Assembly (NCBI GenBank): GCA_030693065.1
Contig: JAUYBL010000007.1
Location: 204,710 to 268,709, forward strand
DNA from: Methylococcaceae bacterium
Lineage (GTDB): Bacteria; Pseudomonadota; Gammaproteobacteria; Methylococcales; Methylomonadaceae
Length of the DNA stretch: 64,000 bases
Direction: 5' to 3'
The position numbers and the translations under genes are program-made. The notes beneath the pieces are model-generated. The model was given only the letters and a program-made list of their open reading frames with translations. It was not told the DNA's origin and ran no database searches. Below are positions 2,469-53,497 of the stretch, one piece after another. Numbering within the stretch: position 1 is the stretch's first letter; each line of letters starts with the position of its first letter.

Positions 2469-4052
2469 ATGGCTATAAGTACAGCAACAAAAGCTGCAAC
2501 CGATGCATTGGCCGTTAATCGCGCGCCAGTTAGCGTAGGTGCTCAAGAAGTTCACAGATGGTTACAAAGCTTCACTTGGGATTTTGATAAAAATCGAACT
2601 AAATATTCGACTAAATACAAAATGGCCAACGATACCAAAGAGCAATTCAAGCTAATCGCTAAAGAATACGCTCGTATGGAATCGGTTAAAGATGAACGCC
2701 AATTCGGTAGCTTGCAAGATGTGTTGACGCGTGTCGATGCAGCTAATCGCGTACATCCTAAATGGAATGAGTCCATGAAAGTAATTTCTAACTTTCTGGA
2801 AGTGGGCGAGTACAACGCGATTGCTGCAACCGGTATGTTGTGGGATTCAGCGACTGCGCCTGAGCAAAAAAATGGCTATTTAGGCCAGGTAATGGATGAA
2901 ATTCGTCATACCAACCAATGCGGCTACATCAACTATTACTTTGCCAAGCAAGGTCAAGATGCGGCCGGTCATAACGACGCTCGTCGTACTCGTGCTATCG
3001 GTCCGCTGTGGAAAGGCATGAAACGGGTATTCTCGGACGGCTTTATTTCTGGCGATGCGGTTGAGTGCTCAATTAACTTACAGTTGGTCGGCGAAGCTTG
3101 CTTTACCAATCCTTTAATCGTTGCAGTCACCGAATGGGCGTCTGCTAACGGCGATGAAATGACCCCGACTGTGTTCCTGTCTATAGAAACTGACGAGTTG
3201 CGTCACATGGCCAACGGTTACCAAACCGTAGTGTCAATTGCTAACGACGAAGCCGCTTCAAAATATCTGAACACTGACTTGAACAATGCGTTCTGGACTC
3301 AGCAAAAATACTTCACGCCGGTATTAGGCATGATGTTTGAGTACGGCAGTCATTTTAAAGTTGAGCCTTGGGTAAAAACCTGGAACCGTTGGGTATATGA
3401 AGATTGGGGCGGTATCTGGATTGGTCGTTTAGGCAAATACGGTGTTGAATCACCAGCCAGCTTACGCGATGCGAAAAAAGACGCGTATTGGGCACATCAT
3501 GACTTGTTCTTACTGGCTTATGCCTTGTGGCCAACTGGGTTTTTCCGTTTGACTCTGCCAACGGCTGAAGAAGCAGAATGGTATGAAGCCAACTACCCAG
3601 GCTGGTATGACATGTACGGCAAAGTCTACGAAGAATGGCGTGCGCGCGGTTGTGAAGATCCAAGCAGCGGTTTCTTACCCTTGCAATGGTTTGCTGAAAA
3701 CAACCACCCTATTTATATAGATCGCGTTTCACAAGTACCTTTCTGCCCTAGCTACAGCAAAGGCGCCAGCACCTTACGTGTTCTTGAATACAACGGCAAA
3801 AAACATTCATTCAGTGACCAATGGGGCGAACGCATGTGGCTGTCGGAGCCAGAGCGTTATGAATGCCAAAATATTTTTGAACAATATGAAGGCCGTGAAC
3901 TATCAGAAGTAATTGCCGAAGGCCATGGTCTGCGTAGTGACGGTAAGACGTTAATCAGTCAACCGCACACTAACAAAGACGGCAAATTGTGGACTTTAGA
4001 TGACATCAAAAAGATCGGCTGCGTATTTGCTGATCCGTTGAAAGCTCTGTAA
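2469..4052 (+). CDS. mmoX: Soluble methane monooxygenase hydroxylase, alpha subunit MmoX
   Basis: Catalytic subunit of the (alpha beta gamma)2 hydroxylase, which oxidises methane to methanol at a non-haem di-iron centre in the cytoplasm. The protein is 527 residues, as in Methylococcus capsulatus. The iron ligands fall at the canonical numbers: Glu114 (VGEYN), Glu144 and His147 (DEIRH), Glu209 (GEACF), Glu243 and His246 (DELRH). Cys151 and Thr213 of the active-site pocket are also present. A Shine-Dalgarno AGAGGAG lies before the ATG. It is the first gene of mmoXYBZDC, behind the sigma-54 promoter at 2329. The name is certain. Confidence 0.99.
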   Translation: MAISTATKAATDALAVNRAPVSVGAQEVHRWLQSFTWDFDKNRTKYSTKYKMANDTKEQFKLIAKEYARMESVKDERQFGSLQDVLTRVDAANRVHPKWNESMKVISNFLEVGEYNAIAATGMLWDSATAPEQKNGYLGQVMDEIRHTNQCGYINYYFAKQGQDAAGHNDARRTRAIGPLWKGMKRVFSDGFISGDAVECSINLQLVGEACFTNPLIVAVTEWASANGDEMTPTVFLSIETDELRHMANGYQTVVSIANDEAASKYLNTDLNNAFWTQQKYFTPVLGMMFEYGSHFKVEPWVKTWNRWVYEDWGGIWIGRLGKYGVESPASLRDAKKDAYWAHHDLFLLAYALWPTGFFRLTLPTAEEAEWYEANYPGWYDMYGKVYEEWRARGCEDPSSGFLPLQWFAENNHPIYIDRVSQVPFCPSYSKGASTLRVLEYNGKKHSFSDQWGERMWLSEPERYECQNIFEQYEGRELSEVIAEGHGLRSDGKTLISQPHTNKDGKLWTLDDIKKIGCVFADPLKAL

Positions 4053-4132: not shown

Positions 4133-5311
4133 ATGTCAATTGAAGTAAGCGGTGGTAGACGCGGTCTAACTGATCCAGAAATTGCAGCCACAATTTTAGC
4201 GGCAATTCCTGATCAGCCCTTAGAAACGCAACGCAAAATGAATTATTTCGTCACGCCGCGCGGTCGTCGTTTAAACGAATATGAAGTGTTGTGTTGCTAC
4301 ACACAGCCAACCCCGGACTGGATTCCAGGTGGCTTGGATTGGGGTGATTGGACCCAAAAATTCCACGGCGGCAGACCTTCCTGGAGCAACGAATCGACTG
4401 AATTGCACAGCACCGACTGGCACAAACATCGTGACCCTGCATTTCGCTGGCATGCTCTGTATGTGAAAGATAAAGCCGAAGAATGGCGTTATACCGACCG
4501 GTTTTTAAAAGCCTATTCTGCCGACGGCCATGTCCGATCTATTGATCCTGTGTGGCGCGATGAAGTATTGGGCGATTATTTAGGTGCGTTCGGTTTCAGT
4601 GAATATGGCTTATTCAACTCACACTCCTCAGTAGTTCGTGATTGCTTGGGCGATACCCTGCGCATGAGCAGCGCCATGATCGGCTTGGATAAAGTTGATA
4701 ACGCGCAAATGATTCAAGCAGAAAGAACCTTCTTGGCGAAATTAGTTCCCGGCTTTGACGAGTCAACTGATGTGCCTAAAAACGAGTGGACTAAAGGTTC
4801 AATCTATAAAGGCGCCAGAGAAACGGTTGAAGAAATTTGGCAAGGCACTTACGACTGGAACGAGATCTTATTCTCAGGTCACATGGTTTACGATCCGTTA
4901 TTCGGTCAATTTGTCCGTAGAGAATTCTTTTTAAGATTGTCGGCTTACTACGGCGATAACTTAACACCGTTCTTTATCAATCAAATGCAGCTTTATCACT
5001 CACAAACCAAAGGCATTACAACTGACATGTTCCATACGTGTCTGGCAGATGATCCTGAGTTTGGCGACTACAACAAACGCTTGTTGCGCGCGTGGAGTGA
5101 TAAATGGCTACCAAGAACTGTCAACGCACTGAAAGATTTCATGGGAATTTTTGCGAAAATTCCTGAAATTAAAGGTGTGACCAGCAAAGACGCCATCGAG
5201 GCGGCTTTAGAGCGCGTATTTGATGATTGGCAACGCGATTACGCCGATCCAATCGGCTACAAAGTCGATACCTCAGCACTGATTAAAACTGTGTTATCTG
5301 GTCTTAAATAA
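4133..5311 (+). CDS. mmoY: sMMO hydroxylase, beta subunit MmoY
   Basis: Structural beta subunit of the sMMO hydroxylase, 392 residues (about 389 in M. capsulatus). It has the ferritin-like helical fold of the alpha subunit but no iron ligands, and it holds the dimer core. The sequence (ERTFLAKLVPGFDES, GTYDWNEILFSGHMVYDP) is typical of the family. Shine-Dalgarno AAAGGAG lies before the ATG. It is separated from mmoX by the 4067 hairpin and followed 9 bases later by mmoB. Confidence 0.98.
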   Translation: MSIEVSGGRRGLTDPEIAATILAAIPDQPLETQRKMNYFVTPRGRRLNEYEVLCCYTQPTPDWIPGGLDWGDWTQKFHGGRPSWSNESTELHSTDWHKHRDPAFRWHALYVKDKAEEWRYTDRFLKAYSADGHVRSIDPVWRDEVLGDYLGAFGFSEYGLFNSHSSVVRDCLGDTLRMSSAMIGLDKVDNAQMIQAERTFLAKLVPGFDESTDVPKNEWTKGSIYKGARETVEEIWQGTYDWNEILFSGHMVYDPLFGQFVRREFFLRLSAYYGDNLTPFFINQMQLYHSQTKGITTDMFHTCLADDPEFGDYNKRLLRAWSDKWLPRTVNALKDFMGIFAKIPEIKGVTSKDAIEAALERVFDDWQRDYADPIGYKVDTSALIKTVLSGLK

Positions 5312-5320
5312 GGAATTATT

Positions 5321-5746
5321 ATGTCTACAAGTTCAAATGCGTATGGCGCAGGCATCATGGCAAAGACTGGCAAAGCCTTTGCTGATGAGTACTTCGCTGA
5401 AGAAAATCAAGTTGTTCATGAAAGTCATGAAGTGGTTTTAGTGCTGAAAAAATCCGATGAAATGAACTCAGTGGTCGAGGAAATTCTGCTCGGTGATCGT
5501 AAAGCTGACAATCCAACCTTGGTCGTTGAGGACCGTGCCGGTTACTGGTGGCTGAAAGCAACGGGTAAAATTGAAGTCGACTGTACTGAAGTATCTGAGC
5601 TGTTAGGTAAAAACTTCAGTGTCTATGATTTTTTAGTGGATGTGTCTTCAACTATTGGTCGCGCTTATACCTTAGGAGAAACGTTCACCATCACGTCTGA
5701 ATTGATGGGGCTTGATGTCAAATTGAAAGACTTGGAAAAAGCATAG
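5321..5746 (+). CDS. mmoB: sMMO regulatory (coupling) protein B
   Basis: Cofactor-less 141-residue protein that binds the hydroxylase and gates oxygen and substrate access and electron flow. The core (VVHESHEVVLVLKKSDEMNS, EDRAGYWWLKATGKIEVDC, VYDFLVDVSSTIGRAYTLG) matches MmoB throughout. The disordered N-terminal tail reads AGIMAKTG. In M. capsulatus the inactivating truncation falls between Met12 and Gly13, numbered without the initiator Met; here that Gly is Ala. Shine-Dalgarno AAGGAATT precedes the ATG. It sits inside mmoXYBZDC. Confidence 0.98.
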   Translation: MSTSSNAYGAGIMAKTGKAFADEYFAEENQVVHESHEVVLVLKKSDEMNSVVEEILLGDRKADNPTLVVEDRAGYWWLKATGKIEVDCTEVSELLGKNFSVYDFLVDVSSTIGRAYTLGETFTITSELMGLDVKLKDLEKA

Positions 5747-5755: not shown

Positions 5756-6253
5756 ATGGCAAATATTCATGACAACCCTAACCGTGATGCATGGGTTAAA
5801 AAAATAGCAGCAGCTAACACACTGGCAAACGGCGTTAAGCTTTTAACTGATTTTCGTGCCAAACATTTGAGTCCGTTTAAAACTGATTTTTCTTTAGAAC
5901 TTGACGGTCAATGGATTGAGTTAAAAATTGAAGAAAAAGTGGCCTTGTTAAAACACAAAGAGTTTAACGATACCCAGTTTCTTAACAACTCTGCCACTGG
6001 CGAGAATGCACAAAAAGTGGCCGATGCCGCTGTCGCTAAAATCAATGCAACGACAGATATGTACGAAGCAGAACGCATTCATATCAACTTTAGGTTGGCT
6101 AACAAGCCACCTATCTTACCCGTCAATGTATTCCTAGACGCTGATCGTCAGTTAGGCACCAAGTTAATGGAGCTTAGAAACACTGATTACTACGCATTGC
6201 CGTTAGAGGAGTTACGTAAAGTACGTGGCGTTAAAGTCATTACTTTGCAGTAG
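5756..6253 (+). CDS. mmoZ: sMMO hydroxylase, gamma subunit MmoZ
   Basis: Small peripheral helical subunit of the sMMO hydroxylase, 165 residues (about 170 in M. capsulatus). Recognised by position between mmoB and mmoD and by segments such as NPNRDAWVKKIAAANTL and YALPLEELRKVRGVKVI. A strong Shine-Dalgarno (AGGAGATAACC) precedes the ATG. A hairpin at 6261-6286 follows the stop codon, before mmoD. Confidence 0.97.
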   Translation: MANIHDNPNRDAWVKKIAAANTLANGVKLLTDFRAKHLSPFKTDFSLELDGQWIELKIEEKVALLKHKEFNDTQFLNNSATGENAQKVADAAVAKINATTDMYEAERIHINFRLANKPPILPVNVFLDADRQLGTKLMELRNTDYYALPLEELRKVRGVKVITLQ

Positions 6254-6321: not shown

Positions 6322-6591
6322 ATGTTAGAGCTATTAAACGCAGAGTCCAACTCCCAACCCCTCGATCTACCAACGATGAATTCTGAACTGACCAAGCTTT
6401 ACGATTCACAGCCCTACACCGCCTATACAGAAGATTTGGAATTTATGTGGCGATGGACCATCTATCAAGACAACAAACTTGTTCAAGAAGGCTGTTCATT
6501 AACCTTAGAAGCCTCAAGGCGTTCTGTGGAACATGTGATGACTTTTTTTAACATGAAACGCCAAAACACCCAGGTTGAACAGGAGCTGTAG
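6322..6591 (+). CDS. mmoD: MmoD, small regulatory protein of the sMMO operon (OrfY)
   Basis: 89-residue protein between mmoZ and mmoC, the fixed position of mmoD/orfY. The C-terminal part (LEFMWRWTIYQDNKLVQEG, SLEASRRSVEHVM-like) is the conserved portion. In other methanotrophs MmoD takes part in the copper switch between sMMO and particulate MMO and binds the hydroxylase; its biochemical action is not settled. It is slightly shorter than the M. capsulatus protein (about 103 residues). mmoC starts 3 bases after its stop codon. Confidence 0.93.
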   Translation: MLELLNAESNSQPLDLPTMNSELTKLYDSQPYTAYTEDLEFMWRWTIYQDNKLVQEGCSLTLEASRRSVEHVMTFFNMKRQNTQVEQEL

Positions 6592-6594: not shown

Positions 6595-7632
6595 ATGGCA
6601 AGTACACATCAGGTCAAAATTATTACCCAGGATGACGAGTCGGTAACATTTGAATGCCGTTCAGATGAAGATGTCATCACCGCCGCAGTGCGCCAGGATA
6701 TTTATTTAATGTCGTCGTGTCGTGAAGGCGGCTGTGCCACTTGCAAAGGTTTTTGCGCTGAAGGCGATTACGTCTTAGGCAAAGTCAGCTCCCAAGCGCT
6801 TCCTTACGAAGAGGAAGAAGCCGGAGAAGTATTGTTATGCCGCTGCTACCCAACCACTGATATTGAAGTGGAAGTTCCCTATACCTATGAGCGGATTTCA
6901 TTTTCCCCAGAAGGTCTGGCTTTTGAGGCAGAAGTCACTGAGCTCTCGCAGATTTCCATCAACGTGATGAAATTACAATTGCGCCGCACCGGTGATGATA
7001 AAACCATTAAGTTTGATTCCGGACAGTTTTTTGATCTGGAAATTCCCGGCACCACAACTACCCGCTCTTATTCACCCGCAAACACGTCCAACAAGCAGGG
7101 CGAGCTGGAGTTTTTGATTCGCATAGTGGATGGCGGTAAGTTTTCGGAATTTTTGAAAAACGGCGCAAAAGTCGGTCAAAAACTGACCGTTAAAGGCCCT
7201 TCAGGGATTTTCGGGCTAAAGGAAAATGGCTTTACTCCACGCTATTTTGTCGCCGGTGGCACAGGCCTCGCGCCTATCTTGTCAATGGTCAGGCGGATGA
7301 AGGAGTGGGAAGAACCACAAAAATGCGTCATTTACTTTGGCGTGAATACCGAAGCAGAGATTTTTCATTTAGACGAACTTGATCAGTTAGCTGCTGAAAT
7401 GCCGACGCTGGAGCTGAGAAACTGCGTGTGGAAATGTACGGATGATTGGCATTGCGAAAAAGGCAGCGTAGTCGATATTTTACGCCGCGATTTGCAAGCG
7501 ACTGGCGCTAAACCCGATCTATATCTATGTGGCCCTCCAGGCATGGTCGATGCCACCTTTGCCGTTTGCGCGGAAATGGGCATCCCCAAAGAGCGCATTT
7601 ATTTGGAAAAATTCTTGCCGAGTGGCTCGTAA
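6595..7632 (+). CDS. mmoC: sMMO reductase MmoC
   Basis: NADH-dependent reductase, 345 residues, that passes electrons from NADH through FAD and a [2Fe-2S] cluster to the hydroxylase. The N-terminal plant-type ferredoxin domain has cluster cysteines at Cys42, Cys47, Cys50 (SSCREGGCATC) and Cys82 (LLCRC). The FAD-binding motif RSYS lies near residue 159, and the NAD domain has GGTGLAPILSM and LCGPPGMVD. It is the last gene of the classical operon; a terminator follows at 7649. Confidence 0.98.
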   Translation: MASTHQVKIITQDDESVTFECRSDEDVITAAVRQDIYLMSSCREGGCATCKGFCAEGDYVLGKVSSQALPYEEEEAGEVLLCRCYPTTDIEVEVPYTYERISFSPEGLAFEAEVTELSQISINVMKLQLRRTGDDKTIKFDSGQFFDLEIPGTTTTRSYSPANTSNKQGELEFLIRIVDGGKFSEFLKNGAKVGQKLTVKGPSGIFGLKENGFTPRYFVAGGTGLAPILSMVRRMKEWEEPQKCVIYFGVNTEAEIFHLDELDQLAAEMPTLELRNCVWKCTDDWHCEKGSVVDILRRDLQATGAKPDLYLCGPPGMVDATFAVCAEMGIPKERIYLEKFLPSGS

Positions 7633-7648: not shown

Positions 7649-7679
7649 AAAGCCGATCTTCACTAAAAGGTCGGCTTTT
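7649..7679 (+). terminator. Intrinsic terminator after mmoC
   Basis: AAAGCCGATC and GGTCGGCTTTT form a 10-bp stem (one G-U pair) with a 10-base loop and end in TTTT. It lies 17 bases after the mmoC stop codon, so mmoXYBZDC is probably one transcript and the BLUF-to-mmoG group needs its own promoter or read-through. Confidence 0.75.
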
Positions 7680-7747: not shown

Positions 7748-8173
7748 ATGTCACTAAATTGTTTGGTATACGTCAGCTTAGCCAACCAGGAGATGTCTGA
7801 TAATCACCTGCAAGCCATGCTCAAGAAAGCTCGGGAAAAAAATGAAAAACTCAGCATCACCGGTATGTTGCTATATCGTGATGGCTTTTTTATGCAGGCC
7901 CTGGAAGGTGAGTTAAATGATATTGAAGATTTATTTAAAACCATATCTCAAGATCCTCGCCATCGTGATTTGCTGCTAATTTACAAAAAGCCCATACAAC
8001 AACGAGGCTTTCCCGATTGGACCATGGGCTTTAATAAAATTAGTGATGAGTCGGTTGAAGCTATCGATGGTTACACCAATTTTTTGAAGAATCCAACCCC
8101 GGAATTCTTTAATCAAAAAGCCAGTGAAGCAGAAGCAGTGCTAGACCAATTTAAACATCAACTGTTCTTTTGA
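7748..8173 (+). CDS. BLUF-domain blue-light sensor protein
   Basis: 141-residue protein made almost entirely of one BLUF domain (FAD-binding blue-light photoreceptor). Residues known to form the photoactive flavin hydrogen-bond network are in register: Tyr8 (LVYVS), Asn32 (REKNEK), Gln50 (FFMQALEG) and Trp91 (PDWTMGF). There is no fused output domain, so it would act through a partner. A good Shine-Dalgarno (AAGGGAGTAA) precedes the ATG. It lies between the mmoC terminator and an unknown small gene, in the same direction as the mmo genes. The family call is firm; a link to sMMO rests only on position. Confidence 0.93.
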   Translation: MSLNCLVYVSLANQEMSDNHLQAMLKKAREKNEKLSITGMLLYRDGFFMQALEGELNDIEDLFKTISQDPRHRDLLLIYKKPIQQRGFPDWTMGFNKISDESVEAIDGYTNFLKNPTPEFFNQKASEAEAVLDQFKHQLFF

Positions 8174-8182
8174 GCCGCGGCT

Positions 8183-8530
8183 ATGTCGTTAACCACAACA
8201 TCATTTGAACTGGGACTCAAGGCCGATGACGAACAGTTTCTTAAAGATATGGTTACTCAGCTTGATGAAACAATCAGAAAATTGGTGGTTGAAGAGAAAG
8301 AGCTAATAAACAAAATCGGCACTGTTCGCGTAGAAGAATTAATAGAGTTTTGGAAACAAGAGTTACCCGAGGAAGAAGAGCACTTTTTTAAAATGACACT
8401 GGATTACTGGGACAAAATACTGATTCGTAATTGGGCACGTTCCAAGCGCCTACATCACACTCGGGCCGAGGTGGGGCGCACTTTCATGAAATTGAATTCT
8501 TATAGAGGCATTGATAACAAGCATGAGTAA
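8183..8530 (+). CDS. Small protein of unknown function between the BLUF gene and mmoG
   Basis: 115 residues, highly charged and mostly helical; residues about 15-55 (DEQFLKDMVTQLDETIRKLV, EEKELINKIG) could form a coiled coil. No signal peptide, membrane segment or known motif was recognised. Its frame overlaps the mmoG start by 8 bases (ATGAGTAA), and it starts 9 bases after the BLUF stop codon, so the three genes look like one transcription unit. No clear Shine-Dalgarno is visible (GAGCCGCGGCT), suggesting coupling to the BLUF gene. A partner protein for BLUF or MmoG is possible but speculative. Confidence 0.75.
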   Translation: MSLTTTSFELGLKADDEQFLKDMVTQLDETIRKLVVEEKELINKIGTVRVEELIEFWKQELPEEEEHFFKMTLDYWDKILIRNWARSKRLHHTRAEVGRTFMKLNSYRGIDNKHE

Positions 8531-10208
8531 ACAAATTATCTATAACCCAGAAGCCCGTTTAAGGATGATGCAAGGCATCGATAAAGTAGCCAATGCGGCA
8601 ATCGTTACCATGGGCAGCGCCGGGCCTGCTGTGTTAATTCAACACCGTACCGATGGTATTTTGCCAGTGTTTACCCGTGATGGCGTGACGGTCGCCAGAT
8701 CGATCAATTTCGATGATCGCCTTGCCGATTTGGGCGGTCGCATGTTGCGTGATGTTGCGGGGGCAGTCTCCCGCCAAGTGGGCGATGGCACCACAACAGC
8801 CATCGTCTTGGCACAAAAAATTGCCCAAGAAAGTGTTAAAAGCGTCGTTGCCGGCTTTCATCCATTACAACTTAAAAAAGGCCTGGATTTAGCGTTAACC
8901 TTGGTTGAAAAGCATTTACTAGACACCGCCGTTACCGGTGTCACTGCCGACTGGATTGAAAAGATTTCTGCTGTCGCCACCAAAGATGAACCAGGCGTGG
9001 GTCGCTTGCTAGCTCAAGCCTTGGCAGAGCTTGGCAGCGAAGGCCAATTGAACTTTCAATTGGGAAATAGCCGCAATGATGAACTTGAAATCGTTGAGGG
9101 CATTCATTACGAACAAGGCTATTTATCGCCCTATTTTGTCACTGATAAAGCGCGCCAAGAAGCCGTATTGGATAACCCGTATATCTTGTTATATGACCGT
9201 GACATTAGCGACTTGATGGACTTAGTACCGATTTTGGAAGAAGTCAAAGCAGAAGGCCGTTCGTTATTGATCATTGCTGAAAATGTGATTGATAAAGCGC
9301 TGTCCGGACTATTAATCAATCATGTGCGCGGTATTTTTAAAGTGGTGGCAGTTAAAGCCCCAGGCTTTGGCGATAAGCGCATCGATCGCTTGAAAGATTT
9401 AGCTTTACTGACCGGCGGCAAAGCCATCTTAGATGATTACAGCAGTCCGAAACTTGAACATGTCACTTTAGACATGCTGGGCCAAGCACAAAGAGTTGTA
9501 GTTACCGAAGGCACCATCACCATCATCGGTGCCAAAGGTGATCGACACGCGGCCCAACAACTCATCGATAATTTGCGTGCCCAAGCTGATCTTATTCTGG
9601 CTAAAAAACCCGGCCAAGGCTCAGCCAGCGGCAATAGACATGATTTTGGCGAACTTGAAGAACGTATTGCCTTGCTATCCGGCAAAACCGGCATGTTTAG
9701 CGTTGGCGGCACCACCGATGTTGAAATAAAGGAGCGGATGGTGCGTATTGAAAATGCCTACATGTCAGCAAAGGCGGCGCTTGAAGAAGGTGTGTTGCCT
9801 GGCGGTGGAGTTGCTTTATATCGCTGCATCAAAATTCTGGATGCTGTAATCGCTGAAAATGCCGAGCAACAACAAGGCATTGCCATTATGAAGCTGGCAT
9901 TAGCCGCACCGTTACAAAGTTTAACCCGCAATGCCGGAATCAATTCAGAAACGGTTATCGCCAAACTGGATGCTGTTGATGACGATCATTTAACGATCGA
10001 CACCCAACGCAATAGTTATGGCAATTTTCTGGACATCGGCATTATCGACCCAGTTAAAGTCATGCGTTTGGCGCTACGCAATGCCGTCAGCGTGGTAACA
10101 ACGCTGATTACTACCGAAGCAGTAGTAATGGATGTACCGGATTTATCGATTATGAACGGTTATTCACCAGAATGGGCGGCAGCAACCCGTGAAGATCCGC
10201 GGGCATAA
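8523..10208 (+). CDS. mmoG: MmoG, GroEL-like chaperonin of the sMMO cluster
   Basis: 561 residues from the ATG at 8523 (MSKQIIYNPEARLRMMQG). It aligns with GroEL along its length: equatorial TRDGVTVAR (Asp53) and GDGTTTA (Asp88), apical EGIHYEQGYLSPYF, and GVLPGGGVAL. Three departures are visible. The LGPKG nucleotide loop reads MGSAG. The catalytic Asp398 of E. coli GroEL corresponds to Asn411 here (VRIENAYMSAK). The C-terminal Gly-Gly-Met tail is absent. MmoG is required for sMMO expression in other methanotrophs, probably for folding or assembly of MmoR or the enzyme. mmoQ, mmoS and mmoR do not follow it. Confidence 0.93.
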   Translation: MSKQIIYNPEARLRMMQGIDKVANAAIVTMGSAGPAVLIQHRTDGILPVFTRDGVTVARSINFDDRLADLGGRMLRDVAGAVSRQVGDGTTTAIVLAQKIAQESVKSVVAGFHPLQLKKGLDLALTLVEKHLLDTAVTGVTADWIEKISAVATKDEPGVGRLLAQALAELGSEGQLNFQLGNSRNDELEIVEGIHYEQGYLSPYFVTDKARQEAVLDNPYILLYDRDISDLMDLVPILEEVKAEGRSLLIIAENVIDKALSGLLINHVRGIFKVVAVKAPGFGDKRIDRLKDLALLTGGKAILDDYSSPKLEHVTLDMLGQAQRVVVTEGTITIIGAKGDRHAAQQLIDNLRAQADLILAKKPGQGSASGNRHDFGELEERIALLSGKTGMFSVGGTTDVEIKERMVRIENAYMSAKAALEEGVLPGGGVALYRCIKILDAVIAENAEQQQGIAIMKLALAAPLQSLTRNAGINSETVIAKLDAVDDDHLTIDTQRNSYGNFLDIGIIDPVKVMRLALRNAVSVVTTLITTEAVVMDVPDLSIMNGYSPEWAAATREDPRA

Positions 10209-10675: not shown

Positions 10676-10857
10676 TGGATAATATCCACACGCCTTCGCG
10701 TAAGTCAAAAACCGTCGCCCATGATAAACGACCAATCTGTGGTCAACTTCACAAACCCCCATCAGTGTCTATACTAATCTTTCAATCACACTGACAGCAG
10801 ACCATTACCGACATGGCCCAACGTTGCAACAAAACGCCAACGGGAATTCACAACATC

Positions 10858-11433
10858 ATGCACATCCAGTCGCATTACAACCAAGGCTTTACCCTGATTG
10901 AACTGATGGTCACCATCTCCATCGCGGCGATTCTGTTAGGAATAGCTATCCCAAGTTTTACTTCCACCATTACCAGCAACCGCTTGACCACCAATGCAAA
11001 CGAATTAGTAACGGCATTAAATTTGGCGCGTAGTGAAGCGATTAAGCGTGGGCAACACGTTGTGGTAAAAAAAACAGGGCCTAATTGGGAAAATGGCTGG
11101 CAAGTATTTGTTGATATTGATCGGTCAACAACAGCAAAAGAGAACGTACTTGATACGGGAACGGATATTGAGCTAAGAGCTTATGCGGCACTTCCCGCCT
11201 CCTATACTTTAAGAGGTAATACTAACTTTGTTAACTTCATTAGTTATAAACCAGATGGACGCAGTAACAATATCGGTAGTTTTGCGCTTTGCGATGGAGG
11301 CAATATCACTGGAGCAAAACTTATCATTGTTAATGCCGTCGGTCGAATACGACAAGGTACAGATGCCGATCATGACGGGATTCCAGAAAAAGAAGATGGC
11401 ACTGAAATCAGCGGATGCACAACGGGATTTTAA
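10858..11433 (+). CDS. GspH/FimT-family pseudopilin
   Basis: Type IV prepilin-like protein with a short leader and class III cleavage motif (NQG|FTLIELMVTISIAAILL), then a soluble domain ending SGCTTGF. The ATG at 10858 gives a usual 10-residue leader; an upstream in-frame ATG at 10813 would make it 25 residues, and neither has a clear Shine-Dalgarno. It heads the cluster fimT-pilV-pilW-pilX-pilY1-pilE, whose products form the minor-pilin tip and prime pilus assembly. The next gene starts 3 bases downstream. Confidence 0.9.
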   Translation: MHIQSHYNQGFTLIELMVTISIAAILLGIAIPSFTSTITSNRLTTNANELVTALNLARSEAIKRGQHVVVKKTGPNWENGWQVFVDIDRSTTAKENVLDTGTDIELRAYAALPASYTLRGNTNFVNFISYKPDGRSNNIGSFALCDGGNITGAKLIIVNAVGRIRQGTDADHDGIPEKEDGTEISGCTTGF

Positions 11434-11436
11434 TCG

Positions 11437-11874
11437 ATGAATAAAAACACCGGCTTTACCCTAATAGAAGTCCTAATAGCTATGCTGGTTTTGGCAGTTG
11501 GCTTGCTCGGTTTGGCTGGCTTGCAAGCCACCAGTCTTAGAAATAACCAAAGCGCTTACAACCGCAGCCAAGCAACGCAATTAGCTTATGACATAGCAGA
11601 CCGAATGCGAGCTAACCTTGCCGGAAAAACCACCTATACAACCGGTACGGCCACAGCAACAGCAGCTTGTTTAACTACAGTGGGCTGTACTAAAGAGGCG
11701 ATGGCTGAAAATGATCTTAAAGAATGGAATGATGCGATTACTGCAACCCTACCTGGTGGAACTGGCACCATAACCGTTACCACCGGGGTATATACCATTG
11801 CAATCACCTGGGATGACGACCACGATGGCGTCACCACTAATAATCCCAATTTCCAAACGAGCTTTCAGCTATGA
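11437..11874 (+). CDS. pilV: Type IV pilus minor pilin PilV
   Basis: 145 residues with prepilin motif NTG|FTLIEVLIAMLVLAVGLLG and the family segment GLQATSLRNNQSAYNRSQAT, then DIADRMRAN. PilV proteins are minor pilins in the priming complex with PilW, PilX and PilY1. The end overlaps the pilW start (ATGA), indicating translational coupling. Confidence 0.93.
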   Translation: MNKNTGFTLIEVLIAMLVLAVGLLGLAGLQATSLRNNQSAYNRSQATQLAYDIADRMRANLAGKTTYTTGTATATAACLTTVGCTKEAMAENDLKEWNDAITATLPGGTGTITVTTGVYTIAITWDDDHDGVTTNNPNFQTSFQL

Positions 11875-12584
11875 AAAACAAAGCCCATCAAACCGGCATG
11901 ACGCTGATAGAAATTATGATTGCCTTATTAATAGGCGCATTTTTATTGGGTGGGGTACTTCAAATATTTATCAACAGCAAACAAACCAACAGAATGCAGG
12001 AAAGTTTATCCAGGTTGCAAGAAAACGGCCGGTTTGCACTGGATTTTTTAGCCAAGGATATTCGTATGGCAGGGTATTGGGGCTGCCATAGCGCTCCAAG
12101 CCCGAACAGTGATATTGCGGGTGCGAATGATAATGCAGCTACCGGAGACAACATTGATAACGGCACAGACACCTTAACTATCAAAGGCGCATTTATCTTG
12201 TCACCTACTGATACATGTAGTGTGGCTGCAAATCTAGCTAATAGCTGTGATAGTGATAATGATGGTATCGGTGATGTTATTTGTTCCACACACGCTAGCT
12301 CAACGATTACTTACAAAATCAACAATAGCGTTTTACAAAAGGATACTGACGGAGTGGTAGAAGGCATTGAAGACATGCAAATTTTGTATGGCGCTGATAC
12401 CGATGCCAACGGCACACCTAATTATTATGTTGCCGCTGGCACAGTTGGTCTTGATATGGCGCGAGTGGTTAGCATTCGGATCAACCTTACTGCCCGCACG
12501 CTTGAGAATACCTTGACGACAACAGGGGACGGCAGAATCAGGCGTAATTTCACATCGACTATCGCCGTGCGTAACCGTTTGTAA
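11871..12584 (+). CDS. pilW: Type IV pilus minor pilin PilW
   Basis: 237 residues. The prepilin leader and N-terminal helix read QTG|MTLIEIMIALLIGAFLLGG, followed by LQENGRFALDFLAKDIRMAG and YWGC, both conserved in PilW. The remaining domain holds paired cysteines. It lies between pilV (4-base overlap) and pilX (15-base gap) and is part of the minor-pilin operon. Confidence 0.93.
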   Translation: MKNKAHQTGMTLIEIMIALLIGAFLLGGVLQIFINSKQTNRMQESLSRLQENGRFALDFLAKDIRMAGYWGCHSAPSPNSDIAGANDNAATGDNIDNGTDTLTIKGAFILSPTDTCSVAANLANSCDSDNDGIGDVICSTHASSTITYKINNSVLQKDTDGVVEGIEDMQILYGADTDANGTPNYYVAAGTVGLDMARVVSIRINLTARTLENTLTTTGDGRIRRNFTSTIAVRNRL

Positions 12585-12599
12585 TGCACAGGGGCCACC

Positions 12600-13244
12600 A
12601 TGAATAAACTACAAATAACTGATGGCAAATTGAGTAGGGTGACACTAAAAGTAGGCACTTTTCTGCCTGCTGCGAACCCAGTTGAGTGGTGGGCAGAAAA
12701 AATTGCCCACCCTACTCGACTGTCAAATCCCGTCTGCAACCATCAATCCGGCGCTGTGCTGATAGTCAGCTTAATTATGCTGCTGCTATTAACATTGATA
12801 GGTGTTACCAGTATGCAAACCACCTCATTGGAAGAAAAAATGGCAGGTAACATGCGCGATAGAGATTTAGCGTTTCAGGCCGCAGAATCTGCGCTTACTG
12901 TCGCAGAAGCCACTCTCAATCCGATTCCTCCTGCTGTCCTACCAACTTTTGTCGTTGCGGGTACTGGCGGCTTTTATACATCAGACACAACCGTTAATCT
13001 AAGCGAATCTCAAATTGTAACGGACAGTTTTTGGACAACTAATCCTGTAGCTACGTCAACGGTGACTGGGCTAGGCAACGGTATTGCTACCCCTAAATAT
13101 ATTATTCAAATAATGCAACCTGGGCTGGGCCTAGCCACCTGTCTTGATGGCTCATCTGGTTGTACAAACTATCGAATCAGAGCACGTGCCACAGGCGGTT
13201 CAACTAACGCCGTGGTTATTTTAGAGTCGATTTACAAACGCTGA
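12600..13244 (+). CDS. pilX: Type IV pilus minor pilin PilX with an unusually long leader
   Basis: 214 residues. The family signature QSG|AVLIVSLIMLLLLTLIG starts at about residue 50, followed by LEEKMAGNMRDRDLAFQAAE, typical of PilX. Normal PilX leaders are about 5-15 residues. Here the first ~50 are encoded largely by an inverted repeat (12632-12717) inserted in frame after the start. No canonical start codon lies closer to the cleavage site in this frame. Whether the prepilin peptidase accepts so long a leader is unknown. The neighbours support the minor-pilin assignment. Confidence 0.9.
   Translation: MNKLQITDGKLSRVTLKVGTFLPAANPVEWWAEKIAHPTRLSNPVCNHQSGAVLIVSLIMLLLLTLIGVTSMQTTSLEEKMAGNMRDRDLAFQAAESALTVAEATLNPIPPAVLPTFVVAGTGGFYTSDTTVNLSESQIVTDSFWTTNPVATSTVTGLGNGIATPKYIIQIMQPGLGLATCLDGSSGCTNYRIRARATGGSTNAVVILESIYKR
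12632..12717. repeat. Palindromic element inserted within the pilX leader
   Basis: Outer arms GAGTAGGGTG (12632-12641) and CACCCTACTC (12708-12717) are perfect. Inner segments GGCACTTTTCTGCC and GGGCAGAAAAAATTGCCC also pair. The element adds about 29 codons without breaking the frame. Confidence 0.75.
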
Positions 13245-13431
13245 AGCACATTAAACAGGCTTTCGGAAAAGCAATCTACCCAATGAAGATTTACCATGAA
13301 TACGTTAAAAAAATATAGATACCGCTTTACCTACAAAGGTCTTCTAGTTGCAGATGGCAGGTAAAAAACAACTGCCCCCCTACTTCACTTTCTATTAAGC
13401 CGCCACGAATTGATTCAAAAGGAATCTCATC

Positions 13432-16400
13432 ATGAAATCGAAAACAAGTTCAAATTTCTATACTGGGCTGGCAGGATTGATAGGCTGCTGGCTTGCCCTG
13501 TTAAGTGCGCCTGCCAATGCGGTAATAGTCTTACCGAATGCACCACTGGGGGTTTCTACCTCGGCCAAACCAATGACCATGATTACGGCTGGGAAAGATC
13601 ACAAATTATTTTACGAAGCCTATAACGACGCCAGCGACATTGATGGTGACGGTACCTTGGACATACGCTTCAAACCGAGTATTACCTATTACGGTCTATT
13701 CGACTCCAAAGTGTGTTACAGCTATGACAACAACTTATTCAGTCCGGCCGCTGCTACCAGTGACGGCAAATGTTCTAACCAATGGTCGGGCAATTGGCTG
13801 AATTACATCACCACCAGCCGCATTGATGCGCTGCGCAAAGTACTTTACGGCGGTTTTCGAGAAGTGGACAGTACTACACAAACCATTTTGCGCAGGGCTT
13901 ATATTCCGGGAGACGCACACTCCTGGGCCAAGGAATACACCAGTGCGACAGTCGACGGCTACAAAATCACCGACTATACCCCGCTAAGCCAGCCAGGTAG
14001 CGGCAAACGGCATTTTATCGGCAATCTTACTAATACTGCAGGAATAAACTGTTCTACATTAAGCAATTGCAGCAATTTGGCTCCATTACTCAAAATTCGG
14101 AAAGATGTCGGTGATAACCGCCGAGTATGGGAATGGGCATCTAAAGAAAGACCCGTATTACAAAATAAGCTTTCTGACGGCCCGGATACTGGTACTGGCG
14201 AGGATGATTTCCCTAGTGGAAGTACTGTTCAAGAGCACACAGTTCGCGTAGAAGTATGCACCACCTCTTACCATGACGGTTGTAAACAATATAGCAGCAA
14301 TTTCAAACCAGTAGGTCTATTGCATGACTACGGTGAAAACGACTCTATGTTATTCGGTTTAATTACTGGTAGTTACAACAAAAACATGTCGGGTGGTGTA
14401 TTGCGCAAGGTGGTTTCCTCGTTCAGTAGCGAGGTTAACACCACCACGGGGCAGTTTACTGCTAACAACACAATCGTTAAATCCTTCGATAATCTGCGCA
14501 TCCGGGATTTCAACAACGGCAGAACTGATAACGCCTATCGAGGCGGCTGGGTCACGACCCGCGCAATGAACCAAGGTGAATTCGTCGATTGGGGCAATCC
14601 CATTGCAGAGATGATGTACGAGAGTCTTCGCTACTTCGCTGGCAAAGCTGCGGCTACTTCCGAATACGATACCAGTGGGAGTTACGATGGCGACATAGGA
14701 TTAACAACAGCAGCTTGGGATAACCCTTACAACACCACTACCAGCGCTGCAAAAGCGCCTTGGTGTGCCAAACCCAACATGTTGGTAGTCAGTGATATTA
14801 ATCCATCGTTTGATTCAGATCAATTACCTGGCAGTTACAGCACATTTGGCAGTTTTACCGGCGATGTCACCGATCTCGATGTGAAGACGCTGGCCGATAC
14901 TATTACCTCTAACGAAAGCGACATTACAGGCAATCGTTTTATTGGACAATCAGGAACAACGTTCGATGGTGCGCCCACAGCGAAAAATGTAACATCCTTA
15001 GGTACGATACGTGGCCTATCACCGGAAGAACCCACCAAACAAGGCAGTTACTACAGCGCATCGGTGGCTTATTTCGGCAAGATTAAAGATTTAAACTCTG
15101 CAGATAATAAACAGAGCGTCGATTCTTTTTACGTTGCGCTGGCATCACCATTACCCAGAATCCAGATTCCAACGGCTAACGGTCAAATCACATTAGTCCC
15201 CTTTGCCAAATCTGTCGCCGCCTCCAATACTAAGGGGCAGTTCCAATCTACCGATCAAATTGTCGATTTTTACGTTGAAACCATTGCTAACTCAGGTTCC
15301 ACAACATCTCCCGACTATGATCTTTTGAATAACGGAGGCCGCTATCACGCGAAGTTTATTATCAATTATGAAGATGTGGAACAAGGCGCAGACCATGACA
15401 TGGATGCAATAGCGGAATACGAGGTTAGGTTGCTGGACACCGGCAAAGTTCAAGTCAAAGTCACCCCTACCTACGAGGCTGGCGGTGACAAGCAAAACAT
15501 GGGCTATATCATTTCAGGAACAACCAAAGATGGCGTTTATCTGGTTGTTCAGGATGAAAATTTCGACAGGCCATATTTTTTAAATACCCCGCCAGACTTG
15601 GATCCAGGAGCATGCGACGCCAGCACACCTCCTGCTGCATGCAGTAAGTTACCTTATACAGTGACCTATCCAGGAGGAAGTTATAGCAATCGGGAATTTA
15701 CTGCCGGCAGCTCTTCGGCCGCAACATTACTCAAAGACCCACTCTGGTACGCCGCAAAATGGGGTGGCTTTGTTGATAAAAACAATAACAACCTGCCTGA
15801 TCTTACCGCTGAGTGGGACGCTGATAATAATGGTGTGCCGGATACGTATTTCTTGGTACAAAATCCCTTAAAACTCAAAGAAACATTAAAACGAACGCTC
15901 GATAACATCATCGAACGTAGCGCCAGCGCCGGTAACGTCACCTCAAATAGTACGGCCATCAATACCGATACCAAGGTGTTTCAATCGCTTTTTAATAGTG
16001 CATCCTGGTCGGGCAATTTGTTGGCTTATACAGTTAGCACTACCGGCATTAGTGCGACACCCAGTTGGCAAGCTGCGGACCATGTGCCCGCTCCTGATGA
16101 TCGTAAAATATTTACCAGCATCGGTGGTGCGGCAAAAGAGTTTAAGTGGAGTGCGCTATCAACTGGTGAACAGTCGACATTAACGTCATTCGGTGCGTCG
16201 GAAAATATTGTCAATTACCTACGCGGCGACCGTACTAATGAGCTGCAAAACAGCGGCTCTTTGCGTAATCGGACGACTAATGTACTTGGCGACATCGTGC
16301 ATTCTTCGCCCTATTTCGTAAAAGATACCAACACCGTTTATGTAGGCGCCAATGATGGTATGTTGCATGCTTTTAACGCCACTACCGGCACTGAGCTATT

Positions 16401-17709
16401 TGGTTATATACCGAGCCAGAGCTTGTCGCGCCTAAAAAATCTAAGTAAGACAGACTATGGTTCGTCAACAAACCCACATGATTATTTCGTCGATGGTGAC
16501 ATTGCTGTTTCCACTCTTGCGCAAACGCCAGGCCATAATTATTTGGTTGCCAGCCTAGGTCAAGGCGGCAAGGGCTTGTTCGCGCTTGATGTAGCCTCAC
16601 CTGCAAGTTTTGGTGCCAGCCATGTGTTGTGGGAATATCCAAGTACTAGCGATAACAATTTAGGCCTGATGCTTGGTCGCCCGATTATCGCCAAAATGAA
16701 TGACGGCACAATGGCAGTGATTATCGGCAACGGTTACAACAGCACCAACGGCAAGGCTGTGCTGTATATTTTTAATTTAGCAACCGGTGCGTTGCTAAAA
16801 TCCATCGATACCCTTGCCGGAGGCGACAATGGCTTAGCGACGCCGGGCGTGTTCGATAGTGATGGTGATGGCAAAATTGACTGGATTTACGCCGGAGATT
16901 TAAAAGGCAATGTCTGGAAGTTTGATGTCAGGGGCGCTGAAAGTGATCATTCGACATGGGCTGTTGGATTGTCTGGATTGCCGTTGTTTGTAGCAAAAAA
17001 CTCTTCTAATCAGCTGCAACCAATTACTGCACAGATAAACGTGGCCGTAAATACTTCTTTGGGTGACCCAAACTCTGGCAAGCGCTTTGTTTTCTTTGGT
17101 ACAGGTAGCTATTTCCGAACTGGAGACCCCAATAATGTCGAGGTGCAAAGTTGGTACGGTTTAATTGATGATGATGTGCAAATTACAGATCGTACCGTCC
17201 TTAGACTGCGGACTGTTTTGGCCGAGGGTACTGTAAGCAGCAAACAAGTGCGTACTTTTTCAGAAGCCAGCGCTAACGATATGGTCGGTAAAAAAGGCTG
17301 GTATTTCGATTTGACTAAAGCTAATGGGACAGCAGAAGGTGAACGCATGGTGACATCATCAAAAGTCTATGCTCTGGCTGAACCTACGTTGATCGCCAGC
17401 TCAATCATTCCTGTCATTGATCCCTGCGTACCAGGCGGCAAAGGCTATGTAAATGCAATCAGCCCATTTACTGGCGCAAGACTGGGTAAGGGCTTTTTTG
17501 ATCTCAACAGAAACGGCAACTTTAACGACGATAAACTCGCCAGCATAAATATTGGAGCCATTGATTTCGATGTGGGTATGCCCAGTGAATCGGTGCTGAT
17601 CGGTAATCTATTGGTCGTTTGCGGCTCATCAGGTGAGTGCAAGGAAGTCCCGATCAATCTGGGAGCAGGTGGAAGTCGGATTTCTTGGCGGGAAATTTTC
17701 AAAAAATAA
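13432..17709 (+). CDS. pilY1: Type IV pilus tip protein PilY1
   Basis: 1425-residue secreted protein with a signal peptide (hydrophobic stretch, cleavage after SAPANA). The N-terminal half is variable. The C-terminal half is the PilY1 beta-propeller (DIVHSSPYFV, VYVGANDGMLHAFNATTG, YLVASLGQGGKGLFALDV). Calcium-binding-type loops are visible: DIDGDGTLD near residue 70, DKNNNNLPD near 780 and DSDGDGKID near 1142; the last corresponds to the site that controls pilus retraction in Pseudomonas. It is longer than P. aeruginosa PilY1 (about 1160). An N-terminal von Willebrand A domain could not be assigned with confidence. It lies among the minor pilins, with a 187-base leader after pilX. Confidence 0.95.
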   Translation: MKSKTSSNFYTGLAGLIGCWLALLSAPANAVIVLPNAPLGVSTSAKPMTMITAGKDHKLFYEAYNDASDIDGDGTLDIRFKPSITYYGLFDSKVCYSYDNNLFSPAAATSDGKCSNQWSGNWLNYITTSRIDALRKVLYGGFREVDSTTQTILRRAYIPGDAHSWAKEYTSATVDGYKITDYTPLSQPGSGKRHFIGNLTNTAGINCSTLSNCSNLAPLLKIRKDVGDNRRVWEWASKERPVLQNKLSDGPDTGTGEDDFPSGSTVQEHTVRVEVCTTSYHDGCKQYSSNFKPVGLLHDYGENDSMLFGLITGSYNKNMSGGVLRKVVSSFSSEVNTTTGQFTANNTIVKSFDNLRIRDFNNGRTDNAYRGGWVTTRAMNQGEFVDWGNPIAEMMYESLRYFAGKAAATSEYDTSGSYDGDIGLTTAAWDNPYNTTTSAAKAPWCAKPNMLVVSDINPSFDSDQLPGSYSTFGSFTGDVTDLDVKTLADTITSNESDITGNRFIGQSGTTFDGAPTAKNVTSLGTIRGLSPEEPTKQGSYYSASVAYFGKIKDLNSADNKQSVDSFYVALASPLPRIQIPTANGQITLVPFAKSVAASNTKGQFQSTDQIVDFYVETIANSGSTTSPDYDLLNNGGRYHAKFIINYEDVEQGADHDMDAIAEYEVRLLDTGKVQVKVTPTYEAGGDKQNMGYIISGTTKDGVYLVVQDENFDRPYFLNTPPDLDPGACDASTPPAACSKLPYTVTYPGGSYSNREFTAGSSSAATLLKDPLWYAAKWGGFVDKNNNNLPDLTAEWDADNNGVPDTYFLVQNPLKLKETLKRTLDNIIERSASAGNVTSNSTAINTDTKVFQSLFNSASWSGNLLAYTVSTTGISATPSWQAADHVPAPDDRKIFTSIGGAAKEFKWSALSTGEQSTLTSFGASENIVNYLRGDRTNELQNSGSLRNRTTNVLGDIVHSSPYFVKDTNTVYVGANDGMLHAFNATTGTELFGYIPSQSLSRLKNLSKTDYGSSTNPHDYFVDGDIAVSTLAQTPGHNYLVASLGQGGKGLFALDVASPASFGASHVLWEYPSTSDNNLGLMLGRPIIAKMNDGTMAVIIGNGYNSTNGKAVLYIFNLATGALLKSIDTLAGGDNGLATPGVFDSDGDGKIDWIYAGDLKGNVWKFDVRGAESDHSTWAVGLSGLPLFVAKNSSNQLQPITAQINVAVNTSLGDPNSGKRFVFFGTGSYFRTGDPNNVEVQSWYGLIDDDVQITDRTVLRLRTVLAEGTVSSKQVRTFSEASANDMVGKKGWYFDLTKANGTAEGERMVTSSKVYALAEPTLIASSIIPVIDPCVPGGKGYVNAISPFTGARLGKGFFDLNRNGNFNDDKLASINIGAIDFDVGMPSESVLIGNLLVVCGSSGECKEVPINLGAGGSRISWREIFKK

Positions 17710-31931: not shown

Positions 31932-34900
31932 TCAATGCAAAGTTGAAAACTGAATCTGCTGTACATACTGAAACACCACATCGGCACGGGCCTCGATGTC
32001 TTCGTTGGAAAAGTCATCGGGCATTCCAGCCAGCAGTTGGTCAATGATCGCCGCCTTCATTTGCGCCTGACTCGAAGCCTTGTCGCGTAAGTTACCCAAG
32101 ACTTGTTGATGTTGAGCGATGGTATCCATCAGATCCTGAGCCACTTTTTTTATCTTGGTAATGTCGCTTTTGGTGATGGCGTCTACATCCTTGGATAACA
32201 AATCAAACACCGCCAGCGCTTTATCGTCTTTGAAGCCTTCACGAATGTAGCGTTTTTCTTCTTCATTCAGCGCCTCATGCGTCTTGAACAGCTCCTCGAA
32301 AACCCGCTGAATTTCTGCGTCGTCTTTATCCTGGTTGTATTCGGCGATAATTTCCTGGTAACGCTTTAGTAGATCGATGCGGGTAGGATTCTGCTTTAGC
32401 ATGGCTTCCAGCCGGGCTTCGATGCGCTCTTGAAGATCCAATATTGTCTTGGCTTTGTAGGGTGATTTTTCAAACTCGATGCGCAGACGCTCAAAATCGA
32501 TGCCGGATAAGTCGTACTGCTTTGGCGAACTGTTAATTTGATTCTTTGGCGCAACCTCCAGCGCGGCATCAATCACTCCGCGAATATCCTGCATGATCGC
32601 GGTGATGTCGACCTTAGGCCTGGGCTTTTGCAGGAGGTTGTACAAAGCACTGATCGCGCTATCCTGGGGTTCGTAGGCAAACAGACCTGAATGGGGAAAT
32701 AAGCCGCGGAAACGGTCCGCCACATCCTCAGCCAGCACCAAAAAAGTCTTTTTGCTTTCCGCTGATTTACTCACCGCATTTTGCGCATCTAACAACGCCT
32801 GCCAGCTTTCGCTACCTTCTCTAGCACGGATCAAGACATCCAGATCAAAATTCACCGAAGCAAGGTGCGCGCGCACTTTGTCGATGGCCGCTTCATACTC
32901 TAAGAGCGCTTTTTCTTCATCAATAAGCGGGTCGGTGGGGTTTTCTTTACCGCCTTGGGCATAAGTCGCCAGGGCTTTGCGCAGGCTTTTCAACATACCG
33001 TTGTAATCAATGATCAAGCCGTTTTTCTTGTTGGCTGCCACCCGGTTGACGCGGGCGATAGCCTGCATCAGCGTGTGCCCTTTCATCGGCTTGTCCAGAT
33101 ACAGCGTCGCCAACGACTTGACGTCAAAGCCGGTCAGCCACATTGCGCAAACCACCGCAACCCGGAACGGGTGCTTGTTGTCTTTAAAGCATTCGTCGAT
33201 GGCCTTGCCGTCAATACCCTTGGACATGGCCTCGCGGTAAGGCACCATGTCGATACCTTCGGCGGCAAAATCTTTCACTTCGTTCTGCTCGGGGCTGAAG
33301 ATCGGGCGAATCTGGGTGTCCGCCATCCAGGCAATCTGTGCCCGCAATCTGGCGACATAGGCTGTTTCAGGTTTGCCCGCTTTGGCGAAAACCATCTCTT
33401 CCTTTTCTAACAGCCCACGCAAAACGACAATCTTCTCGTCCCACTTGAGCTGAATGCGTTGAGTCATCTTGGCGCAGGTGACCTTGTCTATACAAACCAT
33501 GATGGCTTTCGCATTACCGCCGTACTTTGGAAGATCACCCGCCTTGCTTGGCGCCTCCATCAAACGCCAGCGCTGGTGAAAGTGCTCGACAAAATCGGTA
33601 GCGACATCATTCAGGTGGGTATCGGAAGTTAACACCGGGTATTCCCGTGCCAGTTCGCGATAGAGTTTTTCTTCCTGCTCCTCGGTCAGTTCGCCTTCCT
33701 GGCGAGCGGCGTCGATGCGCGCGGCGATACGAGCGTTCAGTTCTTCGTCAACAATCTTTAGCTTTTCGCCGCGATTTTCGTAATACAACGGCAAGGTGGC
33801 GCCATCCGCCACAGCACGTTGAAAGTCGTAAATGGAGATGTACGGACCAAACACCTGCTCAGTAACGCTACGTTCCGGCCCGTCGATTAACGGCGTACCG
33901 GTAAAGCCAATAAACTTGGCTTTGGGCAGTGCCATGCGCATATTCAGCGCTAAGCGCCCGTATTGGGTGCGATGGGCTTCGTCGGATACCACGATAACGT
34001 CGTCTCGCTGGTTCCAGGCATCGTGGACCCGGTTGCGGAACTTGTGGATCAGGCTGAAGACATAACGCCGATTTTGATCGCGCAATAACCGCTCCAAACC
34101 TTCCGCGCCGGTGGCTTTGTCACCTTTATTGGTCGATACACCGCAGCCAACGAAGGTTTTATGAATTTGATCGTCCAGCTCCTTGCGGTCTGTCAACAGC
34201 ACGAAGGTATAGCCCGCCGACACAGTGCGATGCACCTTCTGGCAGAAAAACACCATCGAGTAACTTTTGCCGCTGCCTTGCGTATGCCAAAACACCCCCA
34301 ACTTGCCCGCCAGCACCGCTGGATTGGCGTTACCTTCTTTGAGCCAATCGATGGCACGATTAACGCCCATATACTGATGATTGCGGGCGACAATTTTCAG
34401 GGTCTGCTCTTCGCTGCTGTCAAACAGCGTGAAGTTTTCCACGATGTCGAGCAGCGCGGCCTTACTGCACAAGCCTTGCAACAGAATCGGCAAAATAGGC
34501 TTAAGCGTCGGCTCGTCATGTTTCGGTGCCGGATCGGGATCGTCTTCGTTCTGCCGCTTGCAGCGATAAAAATGATCCCAAGTGCTGGTGATCGATCCAT
34601 AACGCGCATCAAGGCCGTTAGATACAATAACCAAAGCGTTGTAATGGAACAGCTGCGGGATGGTGTCTTTGTAATCGGTGTAGTTGTCGTCGAACGCCGC
34701 CTTTAAGCCTTTGTCATGGCGTTTGAGTTCGATAAACACCAACGGCAGGCCATTGACGAATCCTACCAAATCACAACGCCGCCTAAATGGCCCGTTTTGC
34801 ACCCACAATTCGCGCACCACGACAAAATCGTTTTCCTTCGGTTTGTCGAAGTTGATGACGCTGATATGCACATCATCGGCAGCTTCACCGCCAGGCGACT

Positions 34901-35234: not shown

Positions 35235-35286
35235 GCCTTATATCCTTAACTTTATTACTGATGATTACCGACGCTTCGGCACAGCA

Positions 35287-35783: not shown

Positions 35784-35844
35784 CGCTTTTTGATTCGTTT
35801 AGCCTAGCTCGAGTAACAACTCCCTCTACTTCAGAAAGAGCTCC

Positions 35845-35955: not shown

Positions 35956-36024
35956 TGCTTCGCGCCAAATTGATTTTGGTTCATGCCCAGTTATCTGTGT
36001 ATCGGCGTCAACAACAAGCATCGT

Positions 36025-53452: not shown

Positions 53453-53457
53453 ATGCT

Positions 53458-53492: not shown

Positions 53493-53497
53493 AGTTT

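Follow-up and report, generated by a model that had tools for sequence, protein, structure and literature searches.

A putative BLUF photoreceptor gene as an optional member of soluble methane monooxygenase clusters in Methylococcales

The described proteins closest to the one reported here are the short BLUF (blue-light sensor) proteins PixD (Slr1694, Tll0078) and BlsA of Acinetobacter. In PixD, Tyr8, Gln50, and Asn32 are reported to make up the flavin hydrogen-bond network and Trp91 to be less important, and stable dimers, like a stable complex with PixE, are reported to require the C-terminal region (PMC5899715). BlsA, which we liken to our protein by description only, is likewise a stand-alone BLUF protein whose output depends on a C-terminal tail; removal of its last 14 residues altered light-regulated motility (PMC6695109), and BlsA was reported to act on iron metabolism through Fur (PMC5955987). 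Among the genes of soluble methane monooxygenase (sMMO), the one before mmoG has been named orf1/mmoE in three organisms, with its function given as unknown and a role as the MmoG lid among those considered (PMC9324122). A search of titles and abstract beginnings in the open-access literature found no description of BLUF in sMMO operons or methanotrophs, or, among the 25 listed of 334 matching papers, of blue light in connection with methanotrophs or sMMO.

The sMMO locus and its BLUF protein

The window analysed here is a 64,000-nt stretch of a Methylococcaceae bacterium contig (JAUYBL010000007.1 of assembly GCA_030693065.1, positions 204,710 to 268,709). It holds a complete sMMO cluster, with mmoXYBZDC in order, an MmoD equivalog, and a linked mmoG, and the following features were located.

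2329-2343, + strand: sigma54-type promoter match TGGCAT-N5-TTGC upstream of mmoX (pattern search)
2469-4052, + strand: mmoX, sMMO hydroxylase alpha subunit (list of open reading frames, ORFs)
4133-5311, + strand: mmoY (ORF; order conserved in named loci)
5321-5746, + strand: mmoB (ORF; order conserved in named loci)
5756-6253, + strand: mmoZ (ORF; order conserved in named loci)
6322-6591, + strand: mmoD (NCBIfam TIGR04550, 107.4 bits against a cut-off of 80)
6595-7632, + strand: mmoC, sMMO reductase (ORF and comparison with named loci)
7649-7678, + strand: terminator-like hairpin between mmoC and the BLUF gene, -15.6 kcal/mol, with a short T-run (folding)
7748-8173, + strand: stand-alone BLUF gene, 141 aa (ORF; PF04940, 108.6 bits)
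8093-8170, + strand: BLUF codons 116-141, conserved C-terminal tail PTPxFF...EAEAxLxxFKHQxFF, the proposed partner-binding part
8183-8530, + strand: mmoE/orf1 homologue, 115 aa, predicted helical (ORF)
8523-10208, + strand: mmoG, GroEL-like chaperonin (Pfam PF00118 and NCBIfam GroEL subfamilies above cut-off)

The mmoX gene has relatives of up to 99% identity in named methanotroph records. An initial annotation had placed a stand-alone BLUF domain with Tyr8, Asn32, Gln50, and Trp91 between mmoC and mmoG, together with a 115-residue protein overlapping mmoG. The ORF coordinates confirmed this arrangement, with 9 nt between the BLUF stop and the start of the 115-aa ORF and an 8-nt overlap between that ORF and mmoG, and the PF04940 match and an alignment with TePixD confirmed the domain and its four residues. 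After mmoG, at 10813-17709, the window carries a run of ORFs with N termini that we take to be of the type IV (minor) pilin kind and a 1425-aa ORF that is presumably PilY1-like, both labels being judged from sequence. Restriction-modification-like subunits and accessory ORFs, judged from length and N-terminal sequence, occupy 31932-39410 and 49994-57267.

The PF04940 match covered residues 4-94, with a curated cut-off of 25 bits, and no second Pfam domain above cut-off was detected in the 141-aa protein. Because the alignment with TePixD (1x0p) was gapless over residues 1-107, the PixD numbering applies to the window protein. Met93 is present as well, and none of the five residues varied across 20 aligned close relatives (18 distinct). 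The protein thus shares with PixD the Tyr8-Gln50-Asn32-Trp91-Met93 set and the size class (141 aa, the class being about 140-150) and carries no enzymatic output domain; it differs from PixD in its C-terminal 34 residues, which did not align in the 1x0p search, and in the location of its gene in a methane monooxygenase operon. The sequence is best read as that of a short BLUF photoreceptor similar in type to PixD and BlsA, which would bind FAD.

The mean pairwise identity among 17 distinct rows was 80% for the tail (residues 116-141), 76% for the core (residues 1-97), and 49% for the linker between them (residues 98-115). A 26-residue tail conserved like the core points to a protein partner, and this conservation, together with the C-terminal precedents in PixD and BlsA, makes the tail the probable output surface. 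The AF2 model of the BLUF protein (mean pLDDT 69) placed a helix at residues 118-140, with pLDDT below 50 across residues 109-141. In a search against PHROGs, the BLUF protein (7748-8170) matched phrog_19899 with E 1.9e-26; the function of this family is unknown, and the match makes it probable that phages or prophages carry BLUF-type genes.

Distribution and descent of the BLUF gene

An intact BLUF gene was found between mmoC and mmoE in 13 of the 62 named loci in which this interval was visible, 15 of the 62 being other than Methylococcales by title. A full-length BLUF relative of at least 60% identity occurred in 19 Methylococcales genomes, namely, 16 that were fetched and mapped, the window's own genome, and G065 and G122, whose coordinates are those of L004 and L008. 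All 19 were among the 74 genomes with an MmoE match, and none of the 237 Methylococcales genomes without an MmoE match had such a relative (Fisher p 2e-13, kinship ignored). The order mmoC-BLUF-mmoE-mmoG was kept in 16 of the 16 fetched genomes. Among the eight BLUF pairs with dS under 1.3, dN/dS was 0.05-0.13 in six and 0.30-0.31 in the two involving the BLUF of locus L025; these low ratios and the invariant photoactive residues indicate that the surviving copies are under purifying selection. Recurrence in the same interval and the low dN/dS in six of eight pairs place the BLUF gene in the sMMO cluster beyond chance. The initial annotation had put forward light or redox control of sMMO as a testable idea, and its interpretation stood only in part: a complete BLUF gene lies in the sMMO cluster, is under selection, and has close full-length relatives that recur in these clusters and hardly elsewhere, but its absence from related mmo clusters, which had been named as evidence against the idea, holds for 55 of the 74 genomes and fails for 19. 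The BLUF gene is therefore an optional gene of Methylococcales sMMO clusters.

A 2025 paper, in a comparison involving M. psychrophilus Z-0021 and M. miyakonense HT12, lists an "unknown hypothetical protein" in the interval that holds the BLUF gene, and the word BLUF is absent from its main text. Since Z-0021 (L013) has the BLUF gene and HT12 (L015) is without it, the unnamed gene is probably the BLUF gene.

Partial, decayed, and additional copies were also observed. G287 has a partial BLUF copy adjoining MmoE where the contig ends, L003 retains a remnant of 44 codons with an in-frame internal deletion and both start and stop kept (5427-5561), and L010 retains the tail only (15222-15299); a search of the BLUF-free intervals gave no convincing remnant beyond these last two (best 18.5 bits). 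An internally deleted BLUF gene in L184 (G281), from 1429 onwards, sits on a short contig without mmo genes as neighbours. L006/G121 carries a second BLUF gene of 61-62% identity beyond an MmoR-like gene, and G285 carries two further copies outside the interval (65% and 57%) whose reading stops about 4 codons early. The genome from which the window comes encodes a further BLUF protein, fused to a PsiE-type domain, its gene being divergent from that of a MerR regulator with B12-binding domains (L002, 904-1776 on the minus strand and 1933-2919 on the plus strand). Two bins contain both kinds of operon: JAURYI01 (G285) has L025 with the BLUF gene and the complete L018 without it, and G099 has them on contigs C55 and C14, the BLUF-bearing operon being cut by a contig end. 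If not contamination, such bins would offer a natural pair for differential regulation.

In 49 of 71 named loci, the 400 nt preceding mmoX contained a sigma54-type match, by a pattern that follows the sigma54 consensus and was run without a chance control; the same search gave no match in the mmoC-BLUF gap of the window. The hairpin in that gap was absent from the listing of a separate scan, and a similar one was found in L159, of the same genus as the window. Fourteen gaps were folded against 100 shuffles each (those of the window and L159, and the 12 from intact named loci other than L036); z was -2.5 or beyond in four, -1.4 to -1.8 in six, and without signal in four, and the sequence of the structured gap was not conserved. 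A structured mmoC-BLUF gap is thus frequent and not universal. Downstream, the BLUF stop lay 2-37 nt from the predicted mmoE start in 10 of the 13 intact named loci, or -5 to +14 nt in the same ten when the start was extrapolated from the window MmoE. The spacing was 112-175 nt in L036 (Methylotuvimicrobium buryatense, BLUF gene at 15899-16324), L037, and L075, and M. buryatense also has about 480 nt between mmoC and the BLUF gene.

The BLUF gene broadly co-diverges with the operon: for the window and the 13 intact named loci, 14 operons in all, its distances tracked the operon mean with a Mantel r of 0.78, a value reached in 0 of 2000 permutations, as did those of MmoE (0.82). On an operon tree of concatenated MmoXYBZC and MmoG with 66 rows, BLUF presence required 11 changes for intact copies, or 12 with remnants scored as present; gains and losses were indistinguishable, and a single gain implied 17 losses plus two decayed copies. 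The BLUF tree itself had little resolution, 21 of its 38 inner branches being open, and monophyly of the mmo BLUFs was neither shown nor rejected (AU p 0.398 with 19 rows and 0.478 with the two further copies). The BLUF of L025 (15300-15725) looks recombinant, its first 72 residues being those of the L009 protein and the rest resembling another lineage. An identical protein is encoded in L156 (2234-2659) and in G099, a different bin possibly from the same study, and its presence in G099 makes an assembly error less likely.

MmoE, the 115-aa neighbour

The initial annotation had regarded the 115-residue protein or MmoG as the likely partner of the BLUF protein. For the 115-residue protein as a private partner this was not borne out: the protein is orf1/MmoE, which most loci have without a BLUF gene, and it was therefore rejected as a BLUF-specific partner. 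The named set comprised 75 mmoX loci, of which 67 showed mmoG on the mmoX strand; tblastn (E <= 1e-3) found the homologue within 276 nt upstream of mmoG in 63 of these, and a profile search added L040, L042, and L045, so that MmoE was present in 66 of 67 and only L058 (Skermanella) lacked it by both searches. The positive loci include Methylocella, Methylosinus, Methylocystis, and betaproteobacterial records, and the fetched stretches of these alpha- and betaproteobacterial loci gave no BLUF match (E <= 1e-3). Within Methylococcales, MmoE matched in 74 of 311 genomes, including all 66 that bear mmoX. Eight further genomes made up the rest: G058, G067, G118, G187, G226, G259, and G287, each with additional mmo genes beside MmoE in the fetched loci, and G041, with broken mmoC, mmoE, and mmoG matches. 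MmoE thus belongs to the sMMO set. Two tandem mmoE copies precede mmoG in L034 (the same record as L189) and in L063.

Its identity with orf1/MmoE of PMC9324122 follows from the place before mmoG and from homology to the genes of Methylococcus capsulatus Texas (L038) and Methylovulum miyakonense HT12 (L015). The three organisms named in that paper compare with 66 of 67 named loci here, alpha- and betaproteobacterial ones included, and the two long helices described there compare with four in our model.

The AF2 model of MmoE is all-helical, with a mean pLDDT of 87.7. The GroES-type co-chaperonin fold is a beta-barrel. A GroES-type beta-barrel lid for MmoG is thus not what the model predicts, and a lid role through another fold could still apply. 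Foldseek of the model against PDB gave nothing at E <= 0.001 (329 matches at E <= 10), VIA-align gave a top Z of 9.3, inside the range of common helical arrangements, and no PDB sequence came below E 0.2 in a profile search. Pfam Nsp1_C was discarded as an assignment, being found in 2 of 41 members only and below cut-off in the window protein. A plasmid search with MmoE gave no match.

Candidate targets and biological meaning

The reading that we favour, and to which we give an even chance, is that the BLUF protein travels with sMMO as a functional photoreceptor and signals through its tail to a partner in the sMMO set, adjusting sMMO biogenesis or expression. The protein would be made when sMMO is made and would bind FAD; blue light would change its C-terminal helix, and the helix would bind a protein and so adjust how sMMO is assembled or expressed. 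The likeliest targets would be MmoE/MmoG, through hydroxylase folding and MmoR function, or MmoR itself. The best MmoR-like sigma54 activator of the window genome (68% identical; G000:C25:18329-20095) is found some 190 kb upstream of the operon, on one contig with it, and an MmoR-like gene directly follows mmoG in L156-L158 and L170. The near-confinement of the gene to sMMO clusters and its close spacing to mmoE favour an sMMO target, and MmoE and MmoG are possible targets only as neighbours; the 55 of 74 genomes without an intact BLUF gene in the cluster, the hairpin before the gene in the window, and the stable folds of several relatives in that gap speak against this reading, as do the wider spacings in M. 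buryatense, L037, and L075 and the lesser importance reported for Trp91 in PixD (PMC5899715). A narrower version, which we consider doubtful, has the tail reversibly binding MmoE as a proposed cofactor of MmoG, with light gating hydroxylase folding or MmoR activation; it would mean a light-regulated chaperonin pathway, present as an optional module which, in some genomes, only one of the two sMMO operons carries.

Solitary BLUF proteins of other Methylococcales bear on where the partner lies. These are 45-57% identical, full-length or nearly so, and include a related tail; compared with the mmo type, they mostly have LDPFF for RDGFF and mostly FK.E.LF for the end FKHQ.FF. In the loci fetched, their genes were not beside mmo genes and were next to thiC, asparaginase, recD2, or lpxB. 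Ten neighbour proteins were scanned with Pfam. The seven from these relatives were asparaginase, ThiC, amidohydrolase, ATP synthase, radical SAM, RecD2, and LpxB; the two near the extra G285 copies were AA_kinase and MMPL, and the one at L178/L006 was a sigma54 activator between mmoG and the second BLUF gene. No partner candidate was shared among the ten. Because a related tail is conserved away from mmo genes, the partner of the tail need not be an sMMO protein, and the ancestral partner was probably encoded elsewhere.

It is accordingly possible, though we hold it only tentatively, that the BLUF protein does sense light, that the sMMO promoter serves only to switch it on in the sMMO-expressing state, and that it acts elsewhere, for example on pili or motility or on a regulator, in the way that PixD works through PixE. 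The related tails beside unrelated genes agree with this, as do the minor-pilin-like genes read from N-terminal sequences after mmoG in the window and the reported action of PixD-PixE on pilus-driven phototaxis (PMC5899715). However, intact full-length mmo-type BLUFs were confined to genomes with an MmoE match, which argues that BLUF action matters where sMMO is, and the pilin neighbourhood is not general, since L156-L158 and L170 carry the MmoR-like gene in its place. A near-neutral passenger, spreading with sMMO clusters and being lost, would account for the patchy distribution, the changes counted on the operon tree, and the remnants in L003 and L010; the low dN/dS and the photoactive residues invariant in every row make it improbable.

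Still less probable, in our view, is a sensor of flavin redox, oxygen, or temperature for sMMO rather than of light, the target of which would overlap that of the reading we favour. One BLUF-bearing locus is labelled Methyloprofundus (L075), a deep-sea genus. BlsA, moreover, was reported to integrate temperature with light (PMC5955987, PMC6712483). The window protein, however, keeps the whole photochemical residue network, which a pure redox sensor need not keep.

Returning to the favoured reading of a photoreceptor acting on sMMO, the presence of the BLUF gene in the cluster suggests that light influences how the enzyme is made or used; that light lowers rather than raises sMMO is a guess. 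Methane oxidation in Sphagnum is reportedly enhanced by light (PMC7109220), so the effect could take either sign. For lakes, light has been suggested as an inhibitor of methane oxidation (PMC7474682, PMC12211021), with effects perhaps limited or absent (PMC7474682), and light inhibition would affect estimates of day-night methane emission (PMC7474682, PMC12211021). Folding is reported as an obstacle to making sMMO in other bacteria (PMC9324122), and the presence of MmoE with mmoG nearly everywhere matters for such production. A photoreceptor gene within the sMMO operon would reduce the light effect to a question about a single gene, and named strains that carry it include M. buryatense 5G and M. 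psychrophilus Z-0021.
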